Assembly (NCBI GenBank): GCA_947442625.1 | Contig: CANEWJ010000004.1 | Coordinates: 1-45,427, forward strand | Reading direction: 5' to 3' | Length of the DNA: 45,427 nucleotides | Source: Chitinophagaceae bacterium | GTDB lineage: Bacteria; Bacteroidota; Bacteroidia; Chitinophagales; Chitinophagaceae | Shown: positions 40,791 to 45,427 of the stretch, piece by piece | Numbering within the stretch: position 1 is the stretch's first letter | Layout of the letters: each line of letters opens with the position of its first letter | Program-made: the position numbers and the translations under genes | Notes under the pieces: model-generated | Seen by the model: the letters and a program-made list of their open reading frames with translations, nothing else | Databases searched by the model: none | Told to the model about the DNA's origin: nothing

Positions 40791-40864
40791 TCCTCAGTAG
40801 CTCAGTTGGTTAGAGCATCTGACTGTTAATCAGAGGGTCACTGGTTCAAGTCCAGTCTGAGGAG
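40791..40864 (+). tRNA. tRNA-Asn (GUU)
   Basis: TCCTCAGTAGCTCAGTTGGTTAGAGCATCTGACTGTTAATCAGAGGGTCACTGGTTCAAGTCCAGTCTGAGGAG; cloverleaf intact, anticodon GTT. Confidence 0.96.
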
Positions 40865-40877
40865 CAGATATAAAAGT

Positions 40878-40916
40878 AAAAGGGTTATACTTTGATAGTA
40901 TGACCCTTTTTTATTT
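40878..40916 (+). terminator. Intrinsic terminator of tRNA-Asn
   Basis: aaaagggttatact-ttgat-agtatgaccctttt + ttattt, 14-bp stem. Confidence 0.85.
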
Positions 40917-40930
40917 GGATTCTTTTTAAA

Positions 40931-40962
40931 ATGTACATATTTTTGTACAAATAAAAGTACAC
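40931..40962 (+). promoter_or_regulatory. YefM-YoeB-type operator: three GTAC cores at exact 12-bp spacing
   Basis: GTAC at 40933-40936, 40945-40948, 40957-40960 (atGTACat, ttGTACaa, aaGTACac) immediately upstream of the antitoxin ATG 40965. Confidence 0.8.
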
Positions 40963-40964
40963 AA

Positions 40965-41219
40965 ATGTTAACGACAACACTCTCAGACTTTCGTAGAGAT
41001 ATCAAAAGTTACCTAGATAAGGTTACTCAAAGCTTTGAAACATTGATTATTAACCGGGGAAAAGATACCGGTGTAGTAGTTATTTCTCTAGAAGAGTATA
41101 ATGCTCTGAAAAGCACCCAGCACGAATTGTCTTCACGTATTAATCAACAACGTTTGGATGCATCTATAGAAGCCCTTAAATCCGGGAAGAAAATGATCAA
41201 AAAACTGGATGAGCAATGA
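40965..41219 (+). CDS. yefM: Type II antitoxin, Phd/YefM family
   Basis: MLTTTLSDFRRDIKSYLDKVTQSFETLIINRGKDTGVVVISLEEYNALKST. Confidence 0.93.
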   Translation: MLTTTLSDFRRDIKSYLDKVTQSFETLIINRGKDTGVVVISLEEYNALKSTQHELSSRINQQRLDASIEALKSGKKMIKKLDEQ

Positions 41220-41473
41220 AATTAGTATTCACGGAATTATCCTGGGAAGATTATCTTTTCTGGCAAAAAAACGATAAACAAAAATTAAAGCGTGTCAATG
41301 AGTTGTTGAAAGATATCTCACGTAGCCCATATGAAGGAATAGGCAAACCCGAACCATTGCGTTTTAATTATTCCGGCTTCTGGTCAAGAAGAATTGATGA
41401 GGAACACCGATTGATTTACAGAGTTGTGGACGATGAGATCCAAATTGCTAAATGCAGATTTCATTATGATTAA
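41216..41473 (+). CDS. yoeB: Type II toxin, YoeB/Txe family mRNA interferase
   Basis: ELSWEDYLFWQKNDKQKLKRVNELLKDI...GIGKPEPLRFNYSGFWSRRIDEEHRLIYRV...CRFHYD; 4-nt overlap with antitoxin. Confidence 0.95.
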   Translation: MKLVFTELSWEDYLFWQKNDKQKLKRVNELLKDISRSPYEGIGKPEPLRFNYSGFWSRRIDEEHRLIYRVVDDEIQIAKCRFHYD

Positions 41474-41478
41474 AGGGT

Positions 41479-41590
41479 AATATAGCTGCATCTTTCGTTG
41501 AAAAGGGGAGCCACACTGGACAAGCCATCCCGATTAATCGGGGTGGCTTTTTCTTTGTCCATCAGTGAGTTAGGGTAGTTGCATCTTTTA
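41479..41590 (+). repeat. Structured intergenic repeat A (putative cassette boundary / attC-like)
   Basis: 40-nt left segment 41479-41518 matches 42254-42293 at 38/40; central hairpin gccatcccgatt/aatcggggtggc; right end similar to element C (28/37). Confidence 0.75.
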
Positions 41591-41682
41591 GTTATTAGAG
41601 GTATATATTTTTTGAAAAGCTACAACTCAATATCTTTGTTTTTATAGTGGGATTTCCAATAAATCAACTCATCTCCCTAAAT

Positions 41683-42210
41683 ATGACAAACTATTTAATT
41701 GTTCCTGGTCTGGGTAATTCAGGCCCAGAACATTGGCAAACTTATTTCCAAAACTCCGCTGCTAATTTTTCCCGAATTGAACAGGCCGATTGGGATACCC
41801 CAACTTGTGAAGATTGGATTAGAAATATGGATGCTATGATAACATCGTATGAATTATCATCTGTCGTTTTAACTGGACATAGCCTAGGTTGTTCAACCAT
41901 TGCACATTGGTCTGCCAAGTATAAAAGAAATATTAAAGGAGCTATGCTAGTAGCACCGAGTGATTTGGAAGCACCCAATTATACTTTTCCCACAAAAGGA
42001 TTTTCACCGATACCACTAGATAAATTAAATTTCAAATCTATTGTTGTAGCCAGTTCAAATGATATTTGGGTTTCTTTAGACAGAGCAAAATATTTTGCTG
42101 AAAATTGGGGCAGTGAATTTATAAACATTGGCGATGCCAGTCACATAAATACATCTTCTGGTCATACGAATTGGGAAGAGGGATTAACGATATTGAAAAA
42201 ACTGGGATAG
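41683..42210 (+). CDS. RBBP9/YdeN family alpha/beta hydrolase
   Basis: MTNYLIVPGLGNSGPEHWQTYFQ...VVLTGHSLGCSTIAHW...SSNDIWVSLDRAKYFAENWGSEFINIGDASHIN. Confidence 0.92.
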   Translation: MTNYLIVPGLGNSGPEHWQTYFQNSAANFSRIEQADWDTPTCEDWIRNMDAMITSYELSSVVLTGHSLGCSTIAHWSAKYKRNIKGAMLVAPSDLEAPNYTFPTKGFSPIPLDKLNFKSIVVASSNDIWVSLDRAKYFAENWGSEFINIGDASHINTSSGHTNWEEGLTILKKLG

Positions 42211-42253
42211 TTTACCCCTTTAATTTCCTGATAGATACGTACTCAATCATAGC

Positions 42254-42362
42254 ATTATAGTTGCATCTTTCGTTGAAAAGGGGAGCCACACTGAAAAATC
42301 CATTCGCAGCGCCGTATGGATTGTCTGTATCTATCAATGATTTATGGTAAATTCTTCTTTTG
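42254..42362 (+). repeat. Structured intergenic repeat B
   Basis: Shares left 40 nt with A, different central hairpin (aatccat/atggatt), divergent right end atctatcaatgatttatggtaaattcttctttt. Confidence 0.75.
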
Positions 42363-42633
42363 AAAGTCAGCAAATTAGATATGTCTAATAGCTTTATCTT
42401 AATTTTTACATATAATCACCTTCGGGAAGCAAAATGACGCAGACAGAAGGACTTTGTGTAAATAATTTAATCAATTAACAATATGATACTTGTAATATTA
42501 AAATTGGTGCAAGAAAATATTAGAATAATTAATTTTATTATTATCTATAAGATATTTTATAACAAATAAATTAAACAACTATAATAATTGAATGGTTATT
42601 TGGAAATATAATTCAAATAAAATTTCGTTTATG

Positions 42634-43542
42634 AAAAAGATTATTGTCTTATTTACATCATTTTTTGTAACACTTTCCTCATGCACAATTATACGTCAAG
42701 GTGAGGTAGGTGTGAAAAGACGTTTAGGAAAGATTGATCCAGAGTATATTCAACAGGGGCCCAACGGATATAATTTTTTGACGACTACAATTATAAAAGT
42801 CCCAACCAGAACAGTTAACATTGAAGTAAAACCAGATCTGCCATCAAAAGAAGGACTAACCATCAGATCTGAAATTTCAATCTTATACAGGATGAAGCCA
42901 GAAGCAGCTCCAAAAATCGTACAAAATATCGGCCTCAATTATGAAAGTGAAGTAATCTTACCCGTATTCAGATCAGCAGCGGCAGATGTAACTGCAAAAT
43001 TTCTTGCAAAGGATATGCACAGTGGAGAAAGAACACAAATAGAACAGGCTATACGCAAGGAAATGACAGAAATTCTTGAGCCCTCAGGATTTGTAATTGA
43101 TAATGTACTTATGAAAAGTATAAAGCTGCCTGATGGACTAGCAAAAACAATCGAAGAAAAACTACAAGCAGAACAAGAAGCACAAAGAATGGAGTTTGTA
43201 AAAGAAAGAGAGAAAAGAGATGCAGAAAGAAGAATAATTGAAGCGGAAGGGAAAAAAGAAATAGCTCGTATTCAAGCAGAAGGAGAAAGGAATGCTTCAA
43301 TTATTCAAGCGGAAGGAAGAAAATCAATACTGGAAATTGAAGCCCAGGGTAAAGCAAATGCGATGAAAATTGAAGCTACGGCGATAAAGATGGCAAATGA
43401 CACCATAAACAAAACGCTTACCCCTTCAATTTTAAAATTAAGACAAATTGAAGCTTTTCGTTCCCTATCAAACAGCAATAACTCAAAACTAATCATGACT
43501 GATGGAAAAACACCATTCCTATCACTACCAGATAAATTTTAG
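42634..43542 (+). CDS. SPFH/prohibitin-family lipoprotein-like protein
   Basis: Lipobox-like MKKIIVLFTSFFVTLSSC; VGVKRRLGKIDPEYIQQGPNGYNFLTTTIIKVPTRTVNIEV; long E/K/R coiled coil. Confidence 0.88.
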   Translation, partial: KKIIVLFTSFFVTLSSCTIIRQGEVGVKRRLGKIDPEYIQQGPNGYNFLTTTIIKVPTRTVNIEVKPDLPSKEGLTIRSEISILYRMKPEAAPKIVQNIGLNYESEVILPVFRSAAADVTAKFLAKDMHSGERTQIEQAIRKEMTEILEPSGFVIDNVLMKSIKLPDGLAKTIEEKLQAEQEAQRMEFVKEREKRDAERRIIEAEGKKEIARIQAEGERNASIIQAEGRKSILEIEAQGKANAMKIEATAIKMANDTINKTLTPSILKLRQIEAFRSLSNSNNSKLIMTDGKTPFLSLPDKF

Positions 43543-43699
43543 TAAAGGACATGATTGAGAACCTTCCTGTTTGTGAAAGAGATATATCAATTGGGGAGAT
43601 AGAAATAAATGCATTTGCCCGGCTTGCTGATAAGTTCAAGCCAAAAATTTCTATTTCCTGATACACAAAACTAAAAGAAAGAGATCATTTAAATTTCAA

Positions 43700-43808
43700 A
43701 GATTGATGCAAATCTACGCAGTAATAAGCGTCAAACTGTACAAGCCATTCGCCGAGTTGAATGGCTTGTACTTTGTCAATCAATGATATAGCGTAGATGT
43801 GTCTTTGA
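43700..43808 (+). repeat. Structured intergenic repeat C (nested inverted repeats)
   Basis: Outer atctacgc (43712-43719)/gcgtagat (43791-43798); inner tacaagccattc (43739-43750)/gaatggcttgta (43759-43770), perfect 12 bp. Confidence 0.75.
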
Positions 43809-43851
43809 ATTTATTAATTAACTTTAACGTTATAAGACATCAATCCAAAAA

Positions 43852-44163
43852 ATGAAAAAGATTATACTCCTATTTCTGATTATTGCACCATTTCTTGCTT
43901 TTACTCAAAATATTCCAATGACTTTTCATAATGGTTCATTCGTCTCAATTTATTTAAGTATTCCTGGCGTTATGAATCCTAATTTATCACCCAAATCTAA
44001 TAGTGGAGTAAGTCTAGATGCGGGTCAGGTAGTCTATTTCTTTCCAAAAGGTAAAAATGGTAAAAAGGAAATTTTATTTACAGTAACTCCCACTTGGAAA
44101 AAGGACACCATTTTACAAATAGATAAAATCGTCAAAACACGCAAGAAAGCTTTAGGGTATTAA
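43852..44163 (+). CDS. Small secreted hypothetical protein
   Basis: Signal peptide MKKIILLFLIIAPFLAFTQN, 103 aa, basic C-terminus. Confidence 0.7.
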   Translation: MKKIILLFLIIAPFLAFTQNIPMTFHNGSFVSIYLSIPGVMNPNLSPKSNSGVSLDAGQVVYFFPKGKNGKKEILFTVTPTWKKDTILQIDKIVKTRKKALGY

Positions 44164-44173
44164 TCAAATTGTC

Positions 44174-44256
44174 ACCTCCTGCAAACTTGCATGAGGTACA
44201 ACCTTTTTATCTCCTAATAGTCACATACTCAATCATCGTATTTCAGTTGTACCTTT
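44174..44256 (+). repeat. Structured intergenic repeat D
   Basis: Hairpin acctcctgcaa-ac-ttgcatgaggt (44174-44197) and 9-bp inverted ends aggtacaac (44194-44202)/gttgtacct (44246-44254); internal catactcaatcat resembles 42236-42250. Confidence 0.65.
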
Positions 44257-44271
44257 TTTGTATTATTGTAT

Positions 44272-44856
44272 ATGATTATTAAATCGCTTGAGATAACAAG
44301 GGTATCAGGCCCAAGTGAGATAATTGGCATCAGGGATTTGCAATCATTGAATTTAAGGCAGAATATAACAGCTGAAGAGGCCATTGAACAGGGTTTTCTT
44401 ACTGCCGCCTACACAATAGACTATTTGCAGGAGATGAATTCAGCTTCTCCTTCGATCATTGCAAAGGATGGCGACAAAGTCGTTGGGTATGCGTTGGTTG
44501 CAACAAAAGGTAGCAGAAAGGGACATGACCTTATTGAAGGTCTTTTTGACGCCATTGATGAATGCGAATACAACGGGAAAACATTAAAAGATGTTAACTA
44601 TGTGGTTGTTGGTCAACTGTGTGTAGCAAAAGAATACCGTGGGCAGGGTCTCGTGCAAAAACTATACGGACATTTCAGGGATTGTCTTTCAAATGAGTTT
44701 ACTTACCTCGTTACAGATGTAGCACAAGCAAATGTTCGTTCTCTTAAAGCACATAAGAAAAGGGGGTTTAAAGTCATCAATGAATTGATGTATGGTGGTT
44801 TTGGATGGGATATTGTACTTTGGGATTGGAATGAAGATGATCAGCTTCTATCTTAA
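44272..44856 (+). CDS. GNAT family N-acetyltransferase
   Basis: VVGQLCVAKEYRGQGLVQKLYGHFRDCLSNEFTYLVTDVAQANVRSLKAHKKRGFKVI. Confidence 0.9.
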   Translation: MIIKSLEITRVSGPSEIIGIRDLQSLNLRQNITAEEAIEQGFLTAAYTIDYLQEMNSASPSIIAKDGDKVVGYALVATKGSRKGHDLIEGLFDAIDECEYNGKTLKDVNYVVVGQLCVAKEYRGQGLVQKLYGHFRDCLSNEFTYLVTDVAQANVRSLKAHKKRGFKVINELMYGGFGWDIVLWDWNEDDQLLS

Positions 44857-45003
44857 GAATACGTTATTATTTTATTATTAAATAGGCAATTTTTACATTG
44901 TAAATGGCTTAGTAGAAGAAAAGAAGATCAAACTATAGCCAATCAGTAACTTATAAAAAAATAATCTAACTTTACTTGAAAATTGGAAGTAATTGATCAA
45001 AAT

Positions 45004-45427
45004 ATGTTAAATACTACGAAAGTATCTGTATTAATGACGGTTTTTAATACGGATTTTTCTTACACGAAAAGAGCTATTGACTCGGTCTTAAATCAGGATT
45101 TCCAAGATTTTGAGCTAATTATCATTGACGATGGCAGCAAGGGAAATGATAGGGAATTGTTAATGGATTATGTAGAAAAAAAAGAGGACAAAATTAGCTA
45201 TATCCGACACAACAATCGCGGTCAATCTGAATCAATCAATCGTGGCGTTTTATATAGTTTGGGTGAATATATTACAATAATTGATAGTGACGATGAATAC
45301 AAATACAATCATTTGAGCAGTTGCTTAATGGAAATAAATGACTTGGACTTGATTTGCTCAACCTCGGAAACAATCGTGGATAACGACAACGATTACTATG
45401 TACCCGATAAAAACGACTTAAGTAAAC
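45004..45427 (+). CDS. Family 2 glycosyltransferase, N-terminal part (truncated by window end)
   Basis: Read directly: MLNTTKVSVLMTVFNTDFSYTKRAIDSVLNQDFQDFELIIIDDGSKGND...GEYITIIDSDDEYKYNHL; open to the window end. Confidence 0.9.
   Translation, partial: MLNTTKVSVLMTVFNTDFSYTKRAIDSVLNQDFQDFELIIIDDGSKGNDRELLMDYVEKKEDKISYIRHNNRGQSESINRGVLYSLGEYITIIDSDDEYKYNHLSSCLMEINDLDLICSTSETIVDNDNDYYVPDKNDLSK

Follow-up and report, generated by a model that had tools for sequence, protein, structure and literature searches.

The analysed window, a 45,427-bp stretch of DNA, is contig C4 (CANEWJ010000004.1) of a Chitinophagaceae metagenome-assembled genome (MAG; GCA_947442625.1; 2.6 Mb in 211 contigs). The locus downstream of its tRNA-Asn gene very probably belongs to an array of mobile gene cassettes, of which it forms the tRNA-Asn end. 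Each cassette of such an array comprises a terminator hairpin, usually one gene and a left arm of about 80 bp closing in the 7-bp core GGGGAGC, and the cassettes are joined head to tail. An earlier note on this DNA had seen related elements in four consecutive intergenic gaps and had proposed either integron cassettes with attC sites or an undescribed, analogous cassette system. The latter proposal gained strong support from breakpoints located in the core, from clustering at tRNA-Asn and from gene turnover between congeners. No published description of this array system was found in the open-licence literature.

Element structure and exchange of cassettes at the core

The element was resolved by comparison with about 130 related loci, and a profile of its left arm detected 228 copies in 129 loci, which are partly redundant. 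A full element consists of the left arm, the core GGGGAGC and a right part. The left arms (consensus [AACTTCCTGCAAATTTGCACGAAGTT]CAACCCTTTAATTTCCTGATAGTCACATACTCAATCATCGCATTATAGTTGCATCTTTCGTCTGTAAGGGGAGC) are often 85-95% alike and end in AGTTGCATCTTTCG-N5-AAGGGGAGC, with conservation values mostly of 1.5-2 bits per base through the last C of GGGGAGC and of 0.6 bits or less beyond it. Behind this sharp boundary the next cassette opens with an A-rich stretch of variable sequence and a hairpin of the terminator type, with the repeat AGTTGCATCTTTT often behind it. The hairpins that the earlier note had placed at the centre of the elements do exist, but their position is the start of the following cassette and their appearance that of terminators. 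Repeats of AGTTGCATCTTT flank the core on both sides and resemble arm-type sites, and the GGGGAGC that closes the left arm is a copy of the last bases of tRNA-Asn. A search of the elements against Rfam matched no family. In several cassettes of Aquirufa and Cytophagaceae (right parts in L122, L099, L130, L135 and L140) a second partial tRNA-Asn T-arm (GGTTCGAGCCCAG..AGAGG) was seen about 80 bp past the core, and a palindrome, AAGCCATTCGCCGCGGCGAATGGCTT (L051:58-92, L026 around 1501 and L005:4231-4274), recurs in genomes with no detected arm (G048, G134).

Taking array sites and tRNA ends as limits, 129 cassettes were delimited, with a median length of 900 bp (quartiles 605 and 1422 bp). One open reading frame (ORF) of at least 70 amino acids (aa) was found in 73 of them and two in 32, so that 105 of the 129 hold one or two; these counts are approximate, because gene calls in the comparison loci were made by a greedy choice of the longest ORF. 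As regards orientation, 155 ORFs were co-oriented with the array and 40 opposed, co-orientation being a tendency and no rule; the hydrolase on contig C175 of the window's genome is among the opposed. The 129 cassettes form tandem arrays of mobile, mostly single-gene units, a feature shared with integrons. Their cargo includes alpha/beta hydrolases, GNAT acetyltransferases, glyoxalases, DUF2975 proteins, toxin-antitoxin modules and two-component regulators. A few cassette proteins matched candidate defence models of PADLOC, as single hits.

An all-against-all comparison of the loci revealed the same cassettes with differing neighbours. A given cassette was found in different genera, directly behind tRNA-Asn in one genome and in the middle of an array in the other, with breakpoints falling within the 5-9 bp shared by both junctions. 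Among 35 such tRNA-proximal/mid-array homologous pairs, 30 showed a left breakpoint no further than 12 bp from the core in both partners, and these breakpoints lay mostly 4-9 bp inside the core (-4 to -9). For instance, loci L178 and L126 share a segment of 2013 bp at 94.6% identity, neither end of which is off by more than 5 bp, and two isolates, Aquirufa aurantiipilula (L231) and Sandaracinomonas limnophila (L226), share 98.5% over 809 bp. A test independent of the tRNA considered the 359 shared segments of at least 300 bp and 75% identity: in 72 of them a co-oriented site was present no more than 12 bp from the right end in each of the two loci, compared with a mean of 0.03 and a maximum of 1 when sites were rotated at random (200 trials).

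When an intact tRNA-Asn was close to array sites, 42 of the 43 sites shared its strand and lay downstream. The element's right part directly abuts the 3' end of tRNA-Asn in relatives, and the tRNA-Asn ends inspected all close with GGAGC, the bases of the core, in some cases with CA or CCA behind it. Seven loci with no intact gene at this place have a 3' fragment of tRNA-Asn ahead of their first array site. Taken together, the downstream position, the shared GGAGC ends and the 3' fragments place the anchor of the array at the 3' end of tRNA-Asn. Bounded at both ends by cores and anchored there, the arrays fit an attL/attR-bounded element at a tRNA end, as expected of a cis-mobilizable element (CIME). 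The core would correspond to the acceptor strand plus tRNA bases 73 and 74 and, given the structure of tRNAs, the tRNA should therefore be intact after insertion. The only other recurrent tRNA, tRNA-Met, is situated on the far side of the arrays and was taken as host synteny.

The array of the window and its relatives in other genomes

All the features of the window described here lie on the plus strand. The anchoring tRNA-Asn(GTT), predicted by ARAGORN at 40791..40865, provides at its 3' end the attB/attI-like core GAGGAGC (40859-40865), and a terminator scan located a hairpin directly 3' of it (40878..40910), similar to those coming after array cores in L041, L080, L109 and L131. Cassette 1 (40866..41511) contains a terminator, a Phd/YefM-family antitoxin (40965..41219; PF02604, E=1.1e-15), a YoeB-family toxin (41216..41473; PF06769, E=1.7e-38), a decayed left arm and core A. 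Cassette 2 (41512..42286), limited by cores A and B, carries an RBBP9-type serine hydrolase (41683..42210; PF06821, E=2.3e-54), and cassette 3 (42287..43731), whose right boundary is only approximate because core C is decayed, a SPFH/Band_7 lipoprotein (42631..43542; PF01145, E=5.4e-26). Cassette 4 (43732..44256), truncated at its 3' end ahead of the core, encodes a small secreted protein of 103 aa with no Pfam match (43852..44163). A GNAT acetyltransferase (44272..44856; PF00583) and a GT2 glycosyltransferase whose gene runs off the contig (45004..45427; PF00535) complete the locus; the GNAT gene is probably a former cassette whose element is no longer recognisable. These Pfam assignments bore out the earlier description of functionally unrelated plus-strand genes following tRNA-Asn, and the gap between the GNAT and GT2 genes was indeed devoid of any element copy.

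The relatedness of the elements in the four gaps was also confirmed, yet the same unit is not simply repeated four times: only B is complete and A, C and D are each partial. Element B (42209..42365; E=2e-24) has a left arm (42209-42286) ending in the core AAGGGGAGC and a right part formed by a terminator-like palindrome and a decayed repeat. Element A (41481..41592) shows a decayed left arm, a core AGCTGCATCTTTCGTTGAAAAGGGGAGC ending at 41511, a terminator hairpin at 41522-41549 and the repeat AGTTGCATCTTTT at 41577-41589. Element C (43705..43810; nhmmer 1.6e-10) has a decayed core and no left arm, its right part being intact, with a strong palindrome and a GTGTCTTT repeat; as single-stranded DNA it folds with z=-5.1. 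Element D (44164..44256; E=2e-13) is a left arm only, cut ahead of the core. Within the window, a strict terminator pattern was found only in A and in the terminator of the tRNA. A second cluster, which includes a nearly undamaged copy, was located at the end of contig C175, and no further clusters besides those of C4 and C175 were found in this genome. With elements A, C and D damaged, the array of the window's genome is partly decayed, and its recombinase would be absent from this genome or escape recognition there.

Most cassette genes of the window had a homologue with 75-93% aa identity in array loci of other genera, and the neighbours of these homologues differed in each locus. YefM and YoeB showed 85-93% identity to their counterparts in L142, L044 and L180, and cassette 1 matched L142 with 80.6% identity over 731 bp, where it is placed behind an array core; the breakpoints of this match fall 4 bp inside the tRNA end and within the core. 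The hydrolase was 81% identical over 132 aa to that of Sediminibacterium sp. C3 (L234), situated downstream of tRNA-Asn with other neighbours. The 103-aa secreted protein had a 75.5% aa homologue in the array of a Flavobacteriaceae MAG (L143), and the DNA of cassette 4 matched positions 742-1093 of the same locus at 74.5%, with the same arm at its end. Homologues of the GNAT protein (82-86% aa identity in L120, L128, L186 and L234) and of GT2 (86-88% in L183 and L091) were likewise found in array loci, and no relatives of the SPFH gene were found in the array loci compared. The hydrolase cassette of C175 was 95.8% identical over 909 bp to one in a Haliscomenobacteraceae MAG which, if the binning is right, represents another lineage of the phylum. 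Genus mates of the window's genome had little array content in common.

An exact 25-base pattern was scanned over one genome per GTDB species. It was present in at least 114 stretches which, among the matches listed, were named Bacteroidota or uncultured bacteria, except for three contigs, probably mis-binned, of a 'Bacilli' MAG and an 'Acidobacteria' MAG. Within the window's family 14 of 247 genomes matched, and 2 of 396 did so in an even sample of the phylum. Many array hosts are MAGs, and the isolate names given to these point to lakes and ponds. Given that isolates (Aquirufa rosea, A. aurantiipilula, A. antheringensis, Sandaracinomonas limnophila and Sediminibacterium sp. C3) carry arrays, these are no MAG artefact. 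Arrays were also seen on plasmid-like contigs with Rep- and ParB-like genes, as read from the sequence and unconfirmed by profile search. The left arm was found in none of 50,697 phage (INPHARED) and 72,556 plasmid (PLSDB) records.

Mechanism, alternative explanations and candidate recombinases

The simplest model would be conservative site-specific recombination. A site-specific recombinase, most probably of the tyrosine type and supplied in trans, would bind the left arm and exchange strands within the core, so that a cassette would be excised as a circle (arm, core and its own 5' end) and could be inserted at the 3' end of tRNA-Asn, acting as the attI/attB analogue, or at another core. With the cut behind tRNA base 74 the tRNA would be kept intact, and each cassette would supply a new terminator for the tRNA or for the upstream gene. 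Several observations weigh against a mobile cassette array moved in this way. The core is not always identical between partners, as exemplified by GGGGAGC and the GAGGAGC of the window's tRNA; the 35 homologous pairs span perhaps a dozen cassette families and are therefore not 35 independent events; no circular form of a cassette was observed; and no recombinase could be tied to the arrays, every candidate examined failing on position or distribution.

The integron branch of the earlier proposal, i.e. a chromosomal integron or a cluster of attC sites lacking integrase (CALIN) in which the elements are divergent attC sites and an integron integrase is the mobilising enzyme, would account for single-gene cassettes in head-to-tail arrays, toxin-antitoxin cargo and repeats at gene ends, and many real integron arrays are devoid of intI (CALIN, PMC8618304). 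Nevertheless, the evidence contradicts it. The canonical R''(RYYYAAC)/R'(GTTRRRY) pair was present in 1 of 219 sites and in none of the window array, in line with the earlier remark that the ends of the elements depart from GTTRRRY and that no integrase is visible. The GTT-like motif has GC in place of GT in 36 of the 95 arms, and the breakpoints, located at GGGGAGC, are about 25 bp away from it, not at the G|TT of an attC-type R' box. No conserved fold of the left arm was detected (RNAalifold -2.1 kcal/mol with 0 covarying pairs in 32 sequences), two undamaged left arms folded no better than their shuffles, and the strong hairpins sit in the variable terminator part. Moreover, none of 23 array-bearing genomes had an integron integrase (TIGR02249) above the cut-off. 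We therefore regard an integron as extremely improbable. A dispersed family of miniature inverted-repeat transposable elements (MITE) or repetitive extragenic palindromes (REP), lying between genes by chance, would fit the palindromes and the lack of a transposase in the elements. Yet its probability is negligible: instead of being scattered genome-wide, the elements form one or two clusters per genome (10 genomes), at tRNA-Asn wherever this gene is in view, and the shared segments span from core to core with the gene included. Nor were the arrays fixed operons conserved across relatives, gene content turning over even between congeners. Homologous recombination between the repeated arms, with no dedicated recombinase, is very unlikely; the length and similarity of the arms are perhaps enough for occasional exchange within arrays, but the tRNA-Asn junction and the array junction have just 5-9 bp in common, far too short for this process.

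A closer competitor is CIME-like accretion, according to which the cassettes are remnants of integrative and conjugative elements (ICEs), integrative and mobilizable elements (IMEs) or prophages targeting tRNA-Asn, which kept only their att sites and depend on a helper integrase in trans. This possibility overlaps the mobile cassette array that we favour and differs from it mainly in origin. It draws on the tRNA 3' end as the target, on the arm-type look of the AGTTGCATCTTT repeats on both sides of the core and on the real integrase-bearing IMEs that occupy the same tRNA-Asn genes. However, one or two ORFs of unrelated cargo in most cassettes are unlike the remnants of larger elements, the IME integrases found go with a tRNA block of about 47 bp from the anticodon loop onwards, and no complete element with the left arm and its own integrase was found, including the phage and plasmid records cited above. 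On balance, we consider an origin of this kind possible but doubtful. A lower probability is given to movement of the cassettes by the host XerC/XerD pair, as in the dif modules of Acinetobacter. It would agree with the finding that the tyrosine recombinases of the window's genome and of the isolate A. antheringensis are XerC- and XerD-like only, but the core is conserved on one side only, with no dif-like pair of arms (the host dif being unmapped), and the sites of one array all point in the same direction.

Since the tyrosine recombinases of some array hosts are all XerC/XerD-like, the enzyme responsible for the mobile cassette array probably acts in trans. Hosts of the A. antheringensis type may be explained by an enzyme from a visiting element, by arrays that are often relics as in CALINs or by the host Xer pair, and we lean towards a visiting tyrosine recombinase. 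Among the candidates, tyrosine integrases of 408-434 aa, in islands within tRNA-Asn genes (L041:2984-4501, L116:712-2151, L225:7690-10806 and L226:10165-12456, each with a displaced tRNA-Asn fragment nearby), were assigned to ordinary tRNA-Asn islands that use a different crossover point, because they are close to a duplicated 3' half of tRNA-Asn of about 47 bp. These islands lie between the arrays and the intact tRNA-Asn, and the duplicate starts in the anticodon stem-loop. Small tyrosine recombinases of 174-204 aa (L046, L169 and L117) have relatives elsewhere that are not near arrays. A 345-aa Xer-like family similar to integron integrases has strong members throughout the bacterial family, whose presence (5 of 14 array genomes) bears no visible relation to arrays. 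Stand-alone Xer-like tyrosine recombinases of about 345-410 aa (L062, L063, L073, L075, L202 and L250), a widespread group not linked to the arrays, show an N-terminal WS..WH motif and are unusually similar to integron integrases but lack the region of the extra domain of these. Serine recombinases of 217-240 aa near arrays (L224, L155, L230 and L228) are mostly on plasmid-like Rep/ParB backbones, and none was found in G206, G053, G140, G094 and G188; the sequence 5' of this gene is conserved between L224 and L155 and is res-site-like.

Comparison with known systems and significance

Integrons are the main known platform for the collection and shuffling of single genes in bacteria. The tRNA-Asn arrays resemble integrons and CALINs in their head-to-tail arrangement of mostly single, promiscuous genes with a site at each gene end, in having one fixed entry site, in their toxin-antitoxin cargo and in the separability of array and recombinase. 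They differ in that the site is kept as sequence, without a conserved hairpin fold or R''/R' boxes, exchange would take place in GGGGAGC, the 3' end of tRNA-Asn is the entry, no integron integrase was found and a terminator hairpin stands at the cassette start. The one-sided conservation of the element is closer to attC than to the symmetric core of a phage site, and the double-stranded arm, in which AGTTGCATCTTT motifs recur, is reminiscent of the arm site of an integrase. Tycheposons are tRNA-associated elements of aquatic bacteria with a larger cargo and a tyrosine recombinase gene of their own; they are not known to form single-gene arrays with a common arm. Elements under this name appear in PMC10872708. 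With tRNA-targeted elements and CIME accretion (PMC5704250) the arrays have in common integration at a tRNA 3' end, a tRNA kept whole, tandem accretion and elements devoid of recombinase genes, whereas their units of about 0.9 kb with one gene, unlike decayed ICEs, their identity block of about 7 bp and an arm sequence common to several Bacteroidota families set them apart. Similarly, the dif (pdif) modules of Acinetobacter plasmids (PMC12907356, PMC13141974) are small gene modules between site-specific recombination sites that are shuffled without a resident integrase, but the arrays show no recognised dif-like arms, have a chromosomal tRNA-Asn anchor and carry their sites in direct orientation.

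Whether these arrays constitute a Bacteroidota-wide third cassette platform beside integrons and dif modules, with entry at the 3' end of tRNA-Asn, a double-stranded arm of about 80 bp plus a 7-bp tRNA-mimicking core in place of attC, and a recombinase to which no such role has so far been ascribed, is in our judgement evenly balanced. The arm signature (e.g. TGCAWCTTTCGWNNNWAAGGGGAGC) offers a simple DNA handle on hundreds of unknown cassette genes and makes the recombinase directly searchable, and the cultured carriers (Aquirufa, Sandaracinomonas and Sediminibacterium) make excision and insertion testable. If true, such a convergent platform would explain the exchange of single genes across families of Bacteroidota, many of them small-genome freshwater bacteria.

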